DNA from: Betaproteobacteria bacterium
GTDB taxonomy: Bacteria; Pseudomonadota; Gammaproteobacteria; Burkholderiales; WYBJ01
DNA: 51,464 bases
Assembly (NCBI GenBank): GCA_009377585.1
Contig: WHTS01000036.1
Span: forward strand, 1 to 51,464
Direction: 5' to 3'
In this document: one piece after another, positions 4,512 through 51,464 of the stretch
Layout: each line of letters begins with the position of its first letter
Position numbering within the stretch: position 1 is the first letter of the stretch
Position numbers and translations under genes: made by a program
The notes under the pieces: generated by a model
Databases searched by the model: none
What the model saw: only the letters and a program-made list of their open reading frames with translations
Told to the model about the DNA's origin: nothing

Positions 4512-5702
<1,191 letters not shown>

Positions 5703-21300: not shown

Positions 21301-22491
<1,191 letters not shown>

Positions 22492-44822: not shown

Positions 44823-46253
44823 GTGATTCTGGGATTGGACGCTTGGCTGACACGCTGGCGCAGGGAGCTCGCGCTGGGCGGCTGCCTGGTGGTAGCGGCG
44901 GGGATCCTGGTGGTCTCCGAGCTCGGGCATCGCAGCATCACCCATCGCTACCAGTCCGCCATGCAATCCATAGCCACGAGCGTGCGCCTCAATACCCTGT
45001 CGGCGCGGCTCGCGGACGCCGAAACCGGCCAGCGCAGTTTTCTGCTCACCGCCAAGCGCGAATACCTCGAACCGTACGAGGATGCCGTGCCGCAAATCCG
45101 CAAGCTGCTGGACGAGCTGCGTCCGCACTACGCGCTGCATCCGGATGCGGACGCCGAGAAAGTTTACGCCACCCTGATCGCGGCTATCGGTGCCAAGCTG
45201 GGCGAGATCGACCTCACCCTCGATCTCACCGAGCATGCGCGTATCGATCGGGCGCTCGAAATCGTCCAGAGCGGTGTCGGCCAGCGTACCATGGATGAGA
45301 TCCGCTTCCTGCTGGAGGATCTTTCGCGGCGCGAGGACAACTCGGCGCGCACCATCGCTGAGGGTTGGCACGCGAGCCTTGCCTTGTCCCGGCTCGGAAT
45401 CGCACTGGTCGCGGCCCTCAACGTGGTGCTGGTCGTTGCCCTGTTTTTCGGCTTGAAGCGCGACTGGCGTGTCTCCAATGAACGACAGGATCTGCTGAAC
45501 CGCCACGTGCGCGAACGCACGCGCCAACTCGACTCGCTCGCTTCGCGCCTGCAGGAGGCTGCGGAAGCGGAACGCTCCGCGCTCGCGCGCGAGCTCCACG
45601 ACGAGCTCGGGGCGCTGCTCACGGCGAGCAAGATGGATATCGCCTGGATTCGAGGACGGCTCGGAGAAGAACATGCAGCCTTGCATCAGAAGTTGGCGCG
45701 CGTGATCCAACATCTCGATCAGGGCATGGTTGCGAAGCGTCGCATCGTCGAAGGCCTGCGGCCGAGCACGCTGTCGACATTCGGCCTGGCCACCGCGGCG
45801 CGCGAGCTGACCGAACAGGTGGCGGAGCGCGCCGGCTGGGATGTGGAGTTGGAACTGCCGGAGATCGATCCGCAGTTGCCGGAGGAGGTCGAGATCGCGC
45901 TGTTTCGCGTGCTGCAGGAATCGCTCACCAATGCGACCAAGTACGCGCAGGCGACGCGCGTGCGGGTGCGGCTCGGATGCGAGCCGCTGCACTGCAGGCT
46001 GGAAGTCGAAGACAACGGCCGGGGCTTTCGTGCCGGCGAGATGCGCTCCGGCGCGCAAGGACTGTTCGGAATGCGCCAGCGCACCGAAGCCCGCGGCGGC
46101 AGTCTGCACGTGCTTTCCGCGCCCGGCAGTGGAACGCTCATCCGCGCCCTTCTTCCCGTGCAATCACCGCCTTGCTGGCGCTCGTCGCGCCCGCGCGAAA
46201 GCGTCCCGGTTGCGCCTGCGCCCGGCGACGCACACGGCATAGCGGGTGCGTGA
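44823..46253 (+). CDS. CHASE3-domain sensor histidine kinase
   Basis: A 476-residue membrane kinase. Transmembrane helix 1 (about 18-33), a periplasmic CHASE3 domain marked by ADAETGQRSFLLTAKREYLE, transmembrane helix 2 (about 193-214, LGIALVAALNVVLVVALFF), then a HisKA_3 domain with His259 (ALARELHDELGALLTASKMD) and a C-terminal ATPase with QESLTNATKYAQ and DNGRGF. A Pro/Arg-rich tail ends the protein. Start GTG 44823 after AGGGAG. The natural partner is the divergent NarL-type regulator. Signal unknown. Confidence 0.94.
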   Translation: MILGLDAWLTRWRRELALGGCLVVAAGILVVSELGHRSITHRYQSAMQSIATSVRLNTLSARLADAETGQRSFLLTAKREYLEPYEDAVPQIRKLLDELRPHYALHPDADAEKVYATLIAAIGAKLGEIDLTLDLTEHARIDRALEIVQSGVGQRTMDEIRFLLEDLSRREDNSARTIAEGWHASLALSRLGIALVAALNVVLVVALFFGLKRDWRVSNERQDLLNRHVRERTRQLDSLASRLQEAAEAERSALARELHDELGALLTASKMDIAWIRGRLGEEHAALHQKLARVIQHLDQGMVAKRRIVEGLRPSTLSTFGLATAARELTEQVAERAGWDVELELPEIDPQLPEEVEIALFRVLQESLTNATKYAQATRVRVRLGCEPLHCRLEVEDNGRGFRAGEMRSGAQGLFGMRQRTEARGGSLHVLSAPGSGTLIRALLPVQSPPCWRSSRPRESVPVAPAPGDAHGIAGA

Positions 46254-46342: not shown

Positions 46343-46486
46343 CTACATACTTTGCTTCACGTCCTTAGCAGTGTCTTGCACCTTCTCACCGCCGCGCTCC
46401 AGATCGCGGCCCGCGCCCTCGATGGTGTTGCATCCCGAGGCCATGGCGGCTACCGCCATGACGATCGTCATTAACCAGATTTTCAT
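46343..46486 (-). CDS. Entericidin-like small lipoprotein
   Basis: A 47-residue lipoprotein. The signal MKIWLMTIVMAVAAMASGC ends in a lipobox with Cys19, followed by NTIEGAGRDLERGGEKVQ and DTAKDVKQSM, the entericidin A/B pattern. ATG 46486 has a GAGGGAAG site. Entericidins are envelope stress-induced peptides linked to cell lysis control in Escherichia coli; no partner antidote is seen. Convergent with the kinase gene. Confidence 0.88.
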   Translation of the reverse strand: MKIWLMTIVMAVAAMASGCNTIEGAGRDLERGGEKVQDTAKDVKQSM

Positions 46487-46686
46487 TGTCTTCCCTCTCG
46501 TGCCGGATACTCGTCCCGGTGCAAACCGCCACCGAGCCCTAGCCGAGGCCGCGGTCCGTTCGGCAGGAAGGCATGCTCCCCGCAAATGGCACGGCGCTAT
46601 CGTTCGAGCGCCATGCCGCACGGACCGTACCCGGCCCGGCGTGAAGCTTCAAGCGCCCGGCTAACGGCGCGCTTCTTTCGCTCCCG

Positions 46687-49235: not shown

Positions 49236-49541
49236 GCGGCGATTCTAACCGAAGGCTCCGTGCACCGATGTGGCGCTTCATGCATCGGGTTATGACGACC
49301 GGAAGTTTACCCGTTCGCGCGCTGCGTTCGGCTAATGAGGATTCCAACTCCGGGTGTCAATTGCCCCGGCGGCTTGTGATTCATCCAAACCGCCTGCACA
49401 CCGCCGGTCCCAAACAGTTAAGGATCATTGCGCCGCAAATGCCGCCGCCCGCTGATCACGGGCCCAGCACGTGCATCTGAGTGCTTGTGGCCCGCCTGTA
49501 GTCCTTAGGGCTCATGAAATCAACCACGGATGGAGACAACC
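49236..49541. other. 306-bp intergenic region with one hairpin
   Basis: The divergent gap between the MFS gene and the csbD-like gene has no recognisable open frame or consensus promoter. The one structure seen is a hairpin at 49459-49494: CGGGCC with GGCCCG, and AGCAC with GTGCT inside, loop of ten bases. It is about 48 bp before the CsbD start and may be leader structure. Confidence 0.5.
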
Positions 49542-49748
49542 ATGAACTGGGATCGTGTGGAAGGCAACTGGAAGCAGATGAAGGGCGCGGTCAAGGCGCA
49601 ATGGGGCAAGCTCACCGACGATGAGCTGGATGTGATCGCCGGGCGGCGCGACCAGCTTGCGGGAAAGATTCAGGAGCGCTACGGAATCGCGAAGGACGAG
49701 GCCGAGCGGCAGCTCTCCGAGTGGGAAGGCCGCCAGCGCGATTTCTGA
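49542..49748 (+). CDS. CsbD-family stress protein
   Basis: A 68-residue hydrophilic helical protein of the CsbD/YjbJ family: MNWDRVEGNWKQMKGAVKAQ, WGKLTDDELDVIAGRRDQL and KIQERYGIAKDEAERQLSEW. ATG 49542 has GGAG at 49532-49535; an in-frame ATG four codons earlier is less likely because it overlaps that site. Family members are induced by general, osmotic or phosphate stress, with unknown mechanism. Fifty-nine bases before the next gene. Confidence 0.93.
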   Translation: MNWDRVEGNWKQMKGAVKAQWGKLTDDELDVIAGRRDQLAGKIQERYGIAKDEAERQLSEWEGRQRDF

Positions 49749-49807
49749 TTGGGGCTGCCAGCGCTCAATCCAATTATTGTTGCGATCGAAACGAGGAAGG
49801 AATCAGG

Positions 49808-50392
49808 ATGAATACGATGCCATTGAAAGCGTTCGTTGCCGCCGCGGTCGGTCTGGCGTTCTGCGCTCCGGCTGCCGCCGCCGACACGATGACGCGCGAC
49901 CAGGTGAATGCGGAAGAAAAGCGGATCGAGCAGCAGTACGACGCGGCCAAGCGCGCGTGCGATGGCCGCTCGGGCAACGCCAAGGACATCTGCATGGCGG
50001 AGGCCAAGGGCCAGGAGAAGGTCGCCAAGGCCGAGTTGAAGGCTCGTAACAAGGCAACCGCCGAGGCGCGCTATGAAGCGCGTGTCGCGCGCGCCGAGGC
50101 CGACTACGAGGTAGCCAAGGAGCGCTGCGACGACAAGGCGGGCAACGCCAAGGATGTCTGCGTGAAGGACGCCAAGGCGGCGCAAAGCAAGGCGAAGGCC
50201 GATGCCAAGGTGGCCCGTGCCTCGAACGAGAACGCGGACCGCGGGCGCGAGCGCGTCGCCGACGCCCGCCGCGAAGGCACGGCGGACAGCCGCGATTCAC
50301 AGTATGAAGCGGCGCGCGAACGTTGCGATTCGCTCGCCGGCGCCGCGAAGGACCAATGCCAGCAGCGGGCGCGCGCAGAGTTCGGCCGCTAA
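49808..50392 (+). CDS. Exported helical protein with three CX10C units
   Basis: A 194-residue protein with a signal peptide (LKAFVAAAVGLAFCAPAAAA, cleavage near residue 25). The mature part is Lys/Ala/Glu-rich and helical. A unit Y-x-x-A-(K/R)-x-x-C-D-x-x-x-G-x-A-K-D-x-C appears three times: Cys51/Cys62, Cys107/Cys118 and Cys173/Cys184, always CX10C. These are the only mature cysteines. AGGAAGGAATCAGG gives the ribosome site. I do not recognise a characterised family. Periplasmic disulfide-locked helical hairpins are plausible. Followed by a strong hairpin. Confidence 0.85.
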   Translation: MNTMPLKAFVAAAVGLAFCAPAAAADTMTRDQVNAEEKRIEQQYDAAKRACDGRSGNAKDICMAEAKGQEKVAKAELKARNKATAEARYEARVARAEADYEVAKERCDDKAGNAKDVCVKDAKAAQSKAKADAKVARASNENADRGRERVADARREGTADSRDSQYEAARERCDSLAGAAKDQCQQRARAEFGR

Positions 50393-50410
50393 CGGTTGCT
50401 ATCGAGCAGT

Positions 50411-50459
50411 AGCGCCGAGGCGGGCCGGGGCCGTCATGGTCCCGGCCCGTTTCGGCGCT
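50411..50459 (+). terminator. Long GC-rich hairpin after the CX10C gene
   Basis: AGCGCCGA (50411-50418) pairs with TCGGCGCT (50452-50459), and CGGGCCGGG with CCCGGCCCG inside, closing on a GTCAT loop with a few G-U pairs. The tail is TGCAGTTTGT, a weak U tract. Probable terminator before the AI-2E family gene. Confidence 0.65.
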
Positions 50460-50514
50460 TGCAGTTTGTGCGCAAGGCGCGGATTCGAACGCCCCCAGAC
50501 GAAGCAGGGCGACC

Positions 50515-51464
50515 ATGATTCATTCCGGCAGCAGCAAGACGCGTTGGGCGGGCGCCTTCTTCGGGCTGGGAACGCTTGCGCTCACCATTGCCATCCTGCA
50601 TTGGGCGGCGCCGGTGCTGATCCCCATCGGCATCGCGGTGCTGCTCGCTTTCCTGCTCACGCCGGCCGTGCGCTGGTTCGAGAAGCATCGCATTCCACGC
50701 GTCGCCGCGGTGACCGCCGCCGTCCTCGCGGTCATCGTGTTGCTGGGCGGCCTCACCTGGGTGGTCGTGAAGCAGAGCAATGACCTGCTGGATACGTTTC
50801 CGCGATACGAAGACAACCTGCGCGCCAAGCTCGCCATCCTGCGCGGAGGGGAAGGTACGCTCTTCAGCAAGCTGCGCGACGTGGCGCGCAAGGTCGACAA
50901 GGAAATCAGCGGACCGCCAGCGGCCGCGGCCGGCGCCGACAGTGCGGATGCCGTGAAGGTCACGGTGGTCGAGCCGGACAATCCACTGACGCTCGATCGT
51001 CTGCCGGACTACGCAGCCTCGGCTGCGCCGGCCGCCGGCGGCACGGTGCTCGCGTTCGCACTGCTCGCCTTCATTCTCATGCGGCGCGAAGACCTGCGCG
51101 AACGCATCTTCGGCATCGCCGGTCGCAGCCGCCTGCCGATCACGACGCGCGCCATCGACGAGGCGACCGAGCGCATCACGCGCATGTTGCTCACTCAATT
51201 CACCGTGAACTCGTCCTTCGGCATCGCCTACGGGTTGGGCCTGTACGTCATCGGCATCCCGTTCGCGCCGCTATGGGGCTTGCTCGCCATCGCTTTTCGC
51301 TACGTGCCGTTCGTCGGCGCCATACTCATCGCCAGCCTGCCGTTCCTGGTGAGCGTGCTCACCATGCAGGGTTGGACGGGCCCGTTGCTGGTGATCGGCT
51401 GGTTCATCCTGCTGGAGATCGCGGTCATGGGGCTCGAAGCGTGGCTGATCGGCCCCGGGATCGG
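50515..51464 (+). CDS. AI-2E family (PerM/YhhT-like) permease, 3' truncated by the window
   Basis: The frame is open from ATG 50515 to the window end (316 codons, no stop). It is hydrophobic with helices at about residues 12-55 (FFGLGTLALTIAILHWAAPV, then LIPIGIAVLLAFLLTPAV), the helix AVLAVIVLLGGLTWVVV, a long soluble loop (about 90-165), a helix near 175-190 and the family segment FRYVPFVGAILIASLPFLV. The family covers putative autoinducer-2 exporters, Na+/H+ antiporters and uncharacterised permeases, so substrate is open. The only break is the window edge. Confidence 0.9.
   Translation, partial: MIHSGSSKTRWAGAFFGLGTLALTIAILHWAAPVLIPIGIAVLLAFLLTPAVRWFEKHRIPRVAAVTAAVLAVIVLLGGLTWVVVKQSNDLLDTFPRYEDNLRAKLAILRGGEGTLFSKLRDVARKVDKEISGPPAAAAGADSADAVKVTVVEPDNPLTLDRLPDYAASAAPAAGGTVLAFALLAFILMRREDLRERIFGIAGRSRLPITTRAIDEATERITRMLLTQFTVNSSFGIAYGLGLYVIGIPFAPLWGLLAIAFRYVPFVGAILIASLPFLVSVLTMQGWTGPLLVIGWFILLEIAVMGLEAWLIGPGI

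Follow-up and report, generated by a model that had tools for sequence, protein, structure and literature searches.

The described systems closest to the protein considered here are the twin-CX9C (CHCH) proteins of mitochondria, the OsmY/BON proteins and the CsbD and LEA proteins; the chaperone Spy is also of relevance. In the twin-CX9C proteins each CX9C pair runs along one helix; CsbD has a role in stress, Spy acts as a chaperone, and the LEA group 3 proteins consist of 11-mer repeats. The parts of PMC12114033 concerned with the hairpin state an inner disulfide for COX17 (C36-C45, X8) and for COX6B1 (C40-C54, X13), and list an X10 spacing between both motifs for CHCHD1, CHCHD7, NDUFB7 and COA6; we presume that the cysteines of the latter four are bonded across the loop as well. 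OsmY is presented, in the relevant part of PMC7806268, as a periplasmic BON protein with two BON domains.

The gene under discussion lies in a window (i.e., the whole stretch of DNA that was analysed) of 51,464 nucleotides. Its reading frame occupies positions 49808-50392 of the forward strand, starts with ATG and encodes 194 amino acids plus the stop; a purine-rich stretch resembling a ribosome-binding site, GAGGAAGG, was read from the sequence 5' of the ATG at 49793-49800 (+). The N-terminus is hydrophobic and ends in APAAAA, and a signal peptide of about 25 amino acids (49808-49882, +) was assigned with the cleavage site placed by eye; AlphaFold2 (AF2) assigns residues 1-20 a pLDDT of about 50. 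The mature chain of 169 residues contains 39 Ala, 38 Lys plus Arg and 34 Asp plus Glu. The comparison over 192 codons with the relative at locus L013 (the same contig region as L004, which belongs to the same genus as the window) gives a dN/dS of about 0.21, and judging by this ratio purifying selection acts on the gene. The next gene upstream, which ends 59 bp from the start codon, is of the CsbD family (49530-49748, +; 72 aa; PF05532, E 9.2e-23, 80.3 bits against a cut-off of 40), and the two genes are probably co-transcribed. Downstream there is an AI-2E-type transporter gene (50515-51462, +; PF01594, E 8.1e-30), which is open at the window edge. The scan of 49240-50560 for promoters and terminators called none; a GC-rich inverted repeat with a weak T run, seen by eye at 50422-50448 just 3' of the gene, was likewise not called by the terminator scan.

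The cysteines of the mature protein are C51, C62, C107, C118, C173 and C184, with gaps of 10, 44, 10, 54 and 10; the sole further one, C19, falls within the signal peptide. The initial annotation described an exported protein with three repeats of equal Cys spacing that hold all the mature cysteines, and it was right on each point: the signal peptide is seen in the sequence, the six cysteines form three CX10C pairs, and the repeat motif it proposed agrees with the unit consensus YKVAKExCDxxSGNAKDxC. As aligned, unit 1 spans 49919-50032 (Cys codons 49958-49960 for C51 and 49991-49993 for C62), unit 2, which is the most conserved, spans 50087-50200 (50126-50128 for C107 and 50159-50161 for C118), and unit 3 spans 50285-50386 (50324-50326 for C173 and 50357-50359 for C184), all on the forward strand; a variable linker of Ala and charged residues separates units 2 and 3 (50201-50284, +). 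The protein thus has the features by which we define the family: a signal peptide and CX10C units in which position Cys-7 is Y and the tip is of the GNAKDxC type.

Three CX10C pairs appeared in 1 of 200,000 random placements of six cysteines over the 169 mature residues, which is a null model of a crude kind; the pairs are better supported by conservation, which was considered in the alignment A1 of 57 rows, comprising the window protein and 56 three-unit relatives selected from 77 distinct ORFs. The copy of the window (L001), the near-identical L054 and L042, the one- and two-unit forms, the BON fusions and the cut or distant ORFs were left out of A1; the presence of three units in 57/57 rows is by construction, since the rows were selected. 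The six cysteines are invariant across A1, where 342 of the 343 cysteines past residue 28 fall in CX10C pairs, and both cysteines are invariant in 81/81 unit rows (27 proteins, 38 aligned columns). Among the 77 distinct ORFs, cut ones included, three units are found in 60, two in 14 and one in 3. Unpaired cysteines are rare among them (one in L032, two in L010 and two in L077); a clear signal peptide is absent from L010, and the Cys gap in the third unit of L077 is 9.

The scan of genome contigs gave 67 relatives among 333 candidate stretches. By title or genus name 62 of these belong to Betaproteobacteria, the class of the genera being assumed by us; the other five are L019 (Competibacteraceae), L036 (titled Deltaproteobacteria), L079 (Rudaea, a cut ORF), and L024 and L038 (titled Proteobacteria only). 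The whole-genome search found family members in 8/60 related genomes at E 0.001 and, at E 1e-5, in 60/300 genomes of the order, the latter partly as weak partial matches, and the unit profile at E 1e-4 matched 10/369 genomes of the class and 17/398 of the phylum; these samples overlap and include the genome of the window itself. All genomes matching the unit profile in the class and phylum samples belong to the same class, and three-unit ORFs were found in five genomes from its other families (L083, L086-L089). Six large replicons among the plasmid records match, four of Cupriavidus and two of Variovorax; the phage records contain zero matches. In five relatives one to three CX10C units are followed by a C-terminal BON domain (L016 7467-8012, L069 1092-1790, L068 2863-3558, L077 5956-6999 and L008 1486-2508). 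Other families of the class also contain L090 and L106, which are weak, distant, single-unit matches in Ala-rich, coiled-coil-like proteins with a lipobox-like start and CX10C towards the C-terminus, and L092, a protein of the same type with CX11C.

The statement that no characterised family has this design is supported at the cut-offs of the family databases and for the PDB: the window protein stays below every cut-off in Pfam, NCBIfam and PHROGs, and neither the full protein nor the 57-row profile has a relative in the PDB by sequence. The match to DUF4148 (PF13663; 15.9 bits against a cut-off of 27, E 0.018) covers residues 1-36 only, i.e., the signal-peptide end, and was set aside together with other matches below the cut-offs (zf-C3H1, E 0.14; TMCO5, E 0.55; a serine-peptidase model, E 0.029). 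The three weak hits of the unit profile in the PDB, two tick cystatins (E 0.21; a stretch of CX10C is present in them) and a construct of the HIV-type outer domain (E 0.68), were taken as chance. The strings NAKDVC, NAKDIC, AKERCDD and AKEKCDD are absent from the literature searched, and the titles and abstract starts among the matches listed for the CX10C/helical hairpin and CsbD/BON topics contain no description of the family. It is apparently unnamed in the databases and the literature searched.

The period between units 1 and 2 equals 56 in 56/57 rows of A1 and 55 in one row. Between units 2 and 3 it equals 55 in 18 rows, 66 in 11 and 77 in 16, and is thus divisible by 11, the length of three helical turns, in 45/57 rows, the counts being inflated by the relatedness of the rows; in the remaining 12 rows it is 62-65, 68, 69 or 73. 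This suggests that whole 11-residue helical repeats may have been gained or lost in this linker, the only part of the protein for which such steps were noted. It is tempting to consider, in view of these steps, the Ala-rich charged composition and the adjoining CsbD gene, a LEA-like protectant against desiccation or osmotic stress, largely disordered and with the Cys units of secondary importance. We find this improbable: the cysteines and the tip residues are better conserved in A1 than the linker, the window protein has no LEA match in Pfam up to E 1, and the AF2 models of this protein and of its paralog, described below, are confidently helical.

Units at an equal position are 50-65% identical between proteins and those at different positions 35-43%; units inside one protein are 36-45% identical, which is hardly above the values for different positions. 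Since equal-position units are more alike than units within one protein, the triplication looks older than the spread of the family.

The AF2 model of the window protein, based on the 57-row alignment, has a pLDDT of 90.1 and a pTM of 0.81; the alignment is shallow (hhalign Neff 3.2), and helical proteins reach high pLDDT easily. The predicted helices span residues 30-51, 56-82, 85-107, 112-140, 143-174 and 178-191, with breaks between the paired cysteines at 52-55 in unit 1, 108-111 in unit 2 and 175-177 in unit 3. The paralog from the same genome (G000:C81), which is 50% identical, gives a pLDDT of 90.8, a pTM of 0.81 and likewise six helices, ordered as in the window protein; its unit 2-3 period is 77 versus 66 in the window protein, helix 4 is longer by 8 residues and helix 5 by 2. 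A helix break between the two cysteines is present in every unit of both models. The prediction agrees with the helical hairpin units of the initial annotation, each Cys pair flanking a predicted turn, and we consider a three-hairpin helical structure of the window protein fairly likely.

Foldseek gave zero PDB matches to the model at E <=0.001. The best VIA row for the window model is 7vw1 (Z 9.3, rmsd 3.4, 81 residues), and the model of the paralog gave 7vw1 (Z 10.7, rmsd 6.4, 87 residues) and 7vw0 (Z 9.3, rmsd 3.9, 83 residues); all these rows are below a Z of about 13, under which a match may mean a common arrangement among helical bundles. The protein of these entries, entitled "dimeric periplasmic protein (bound with cuprous ions)", is periplasmic and helical like the window protein, but the match extends over only roughly the first half of the model, at 9-12% identity. 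The code 7VW1 is absent from the literature searched. The idea that 7vw1 could be E. coli YqjC (DUF1090) was abandoned; the comparison of YqjC with the 57-row profile by hhalign gave a probability of 2%, over 18 columns in the signal-peptide region.

That the top VIA row of both models was solved with cuprous ions, together with the presence of a homologue on a megaplasmid of Cupriavidus metallidurans CH34, brings to mind a periplasmic metal buffer or carrier, in which the paired thiols would be ligands of a soft metal, for instance Cu(I). The structural match may reflect mere common helix packing, however, and the other observations argue in the opposite direction: His is absent from the mature protein and Met occurs only twice, the 25 neighbour families listed, out of 79, include no metal-resistance family, periplasmic Cys pairs are usually oxidised, and we know of no metal site with the CX10C spacing. 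We assign metal binding a small probability.

Disulfides within the units of the window protein are proposed here: intra-unit pairing is favoured because the cysteines appear and disappear as pairs with whole units, including the BON-fused relative L016, which has one unit and two cysteines. Crude backbone sampling, with idealised helices, loop basins that were guessed and a packing filter chosen arbitrarily, speaks at most slightly against such a staple, with C and C+11 in disulfide range in 1/237 packed hairpin models and, in a second sampling, in 0-4% across loop types, where some other spacings performed far better for certain loops. The disfavoured C/C+11 contact within one hairpin, as well as the up-down order of the six helices, which on the AF2 models would bring all three tips to one end, could be accommodated by disulfides between units or between chains that hold the bundle closed or make up a covalent scaffold of the envelope. 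We regard such bonding as unlikely, considering that the Cys pairs come and go with the units (although the two cysteines of the one-unit relative would also allow bonds between chains) and that hairpin-internal disulfides have precedents in COX17 and COX6B1, as given in the above parts of PMC12114033.

The analogy with the twin-CX9C proteins, from which the initial annotation proceeded, stands with respect to the helical hairpins, which are predicted here, and does not stand with respect to the pair itself. As the turn falls between the two cysteines, the pair corresponds to the inner disulfide that bridges the hairpin loop and not to the CX9C pair. Two CX9C motifs, one per helix, are not found in the window protein, which has CX10C with a predicted break between the cysteines, and it gives zero matches to the CHCH-type Pfam profile up to E 1.

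The gene neighbourhood was considered for 78 loci, L001 among them being the window itself. CsbD occurs within 1.5 kb in 27/78 loci (a number that includes one locus fetched twice, L004 = L013, and four closely related Cupriavidus loci), and there is none within this distance in 51/78. In 18 loci the CsbD gene is co-oriented and upstream by <=300 bp, another 6 loci have it downstream and again co-oriented (four of these loci are from Cupriavidus), and in 3 it is on the opposite strand. The homologue of Cupriavidus metallidurans CH34 (L080 9001-9537) is followed closely by a CsbD-like gene. Since CsbD genes are so few per genome (two in the 6.76 Mb genome of the window and 11 matches in 21 whole genomes), chance adjacency can be estimated at about 0.1% per locus, and the co-occurrence with CsbD that was proposed as a check is supported. 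The same distance contains AI-2E in 8 loci, BON in 7 and OmpA in 6. The Pfam scan of 141 nearby ORFs, namely two ORFs of the window and 139 hand-picked from 234 candidates on heuristic gene calls, with second-nearest ORFs, several long ORFs and near-identical loci left out, gave CsbD in 16, AI-2E in 6, OmpA in 5, the glycine zipper (Rick_17kDa_Anti) in 5, DSBA in 4, and DUF3309, DUF1328 and DUF5670 in 3 each. The genome of the window has nine BON matches.

Co-occurrence with DsbA/DsbB, also proposed as a check, was found in part: DsbB is present in the genome of the window, and a DsbA neighbourhood was dropped, as the four Pfam DSBA neighbours have neither the CXXC motif nor a signal peptide and presumably resemble 2-hydroxychromene-2-carboxylate isomerases. 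This bears on the possibility that the protein is a redox sensor or a thiol buffer whose disulfides answer oxidative stress. Six invariant cysteines on an exported protein would suit such a role, but CXXC is absent from the window protein as well as from the DSBA-family neighbours in the four loci, and we hold this role to be very unlikely.

Some other genes of the window can be mentioned. Upstream of the pair formed by the CsbD gene and the CX10C gene there is a gene for an entericidin-family lipoprotein (46343-46621, -; PF08085, E 1.3e-8), which is adjoined by a gene for a CHASE3 histidine kinase (44823-46253). The genes at 4512-5702 and 21301-22491 are of equal length (396 aa) and identical in the first 60 residues; we take them to be EF-Tu-like. 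They flank a region of large genes and of genes resembling those for ribosomal proteins.

The combination of the signal peptide, the Cys pairing, the predicted helices, the CsbD adjacency and the BON fusions suggests an oxidised periplasmic protein of the stress response. We believe, with moderate confidence, that the CX10C protein is a Sec-exported periplasmic protein of disulfide-stapled helical hairpins, which acts in stress beside CsbD in the manner of OsmY or Spy. After Sec export it would form in the periplasm a helical bundle of three homologous hairpins; in each unit a helix would end at or beside the first cysteine and be followed by a turn of 3-4 residues, so that the second cysteine would be the seventh residue of the next helix. 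The Dsb system would oxidise each pair, stapling the hairpin near its tip, and the staples may keep this Ala-rich, highly charged helical protein compact. Together with CsbD the protein could then serve in envelope or general stress as a periplasmic stabiliser or holdase of the OsmY or Spy kind; both the stress function and the activity as holdase or stabiliser are our guesses, the latter made by analogy.

If the pairs do form disulfides, the unit would be a simple natural repeat for disulfide-stabilised helical proteins of the bacterial periplasm, and the members of the family would probably be substrates of DsbA and could serve as a template from which small, stable helical scaffolds are built. 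Uncharacterised genes often found beside CsbD, and sometimes beside OmpA, BON and AI-2E, would thereby receive a common testable description.

In comparison with the known systems, the protein resembles each of them in part. CsbD (PF05532) is small and charged, as is the window protein; CsbD is not known to be exported, unlike the CX10C protein, and the match to PF05532 belongs to the neighbouring gene, with none in the window protein itself. The LEA group 3 proteins share with it the Ala-rich charged composition, and their 11-mers recall the 11-residue steps of the linker lengths; they differ in that the CX10C protein has conserved Cys units and a confident helical model. The OsmY/BON proteins are exported like the CX10C protein, and BON is fused to five of its relatives and near it in 7/78 loci; OsmY has two BON domains according to the relevant part of PMC7806268, whereas the window protein has none (no match to PF04972 up to E 1). 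The twin-CX9C proteins of the mitochondrial intermembrane space are hairpins of helices that reside in an oxidising compartment and are bridged by an inner loop disulfide, as proposed here; they have two Cys pairs per hairpin, whereas the CX10C protein has one per predicted hairpin and is exported and bacterial. It is tentatively conceivable, although we incline to doubt it, that the family is an independent bacterial counterpart of the CHCH design and an undescribed class of envelope-stress proteins, with the stapled hairpin as a modular brick that would occur in one, two or three copies, alone or fused to BON, and as a weaker distant brick near the end of lipoprotein-like coiled-coil proteins. 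The disulfide-stapled helical hairpin is a known design, which the CX10C protein resembles in a setting and an arrangement that are new.
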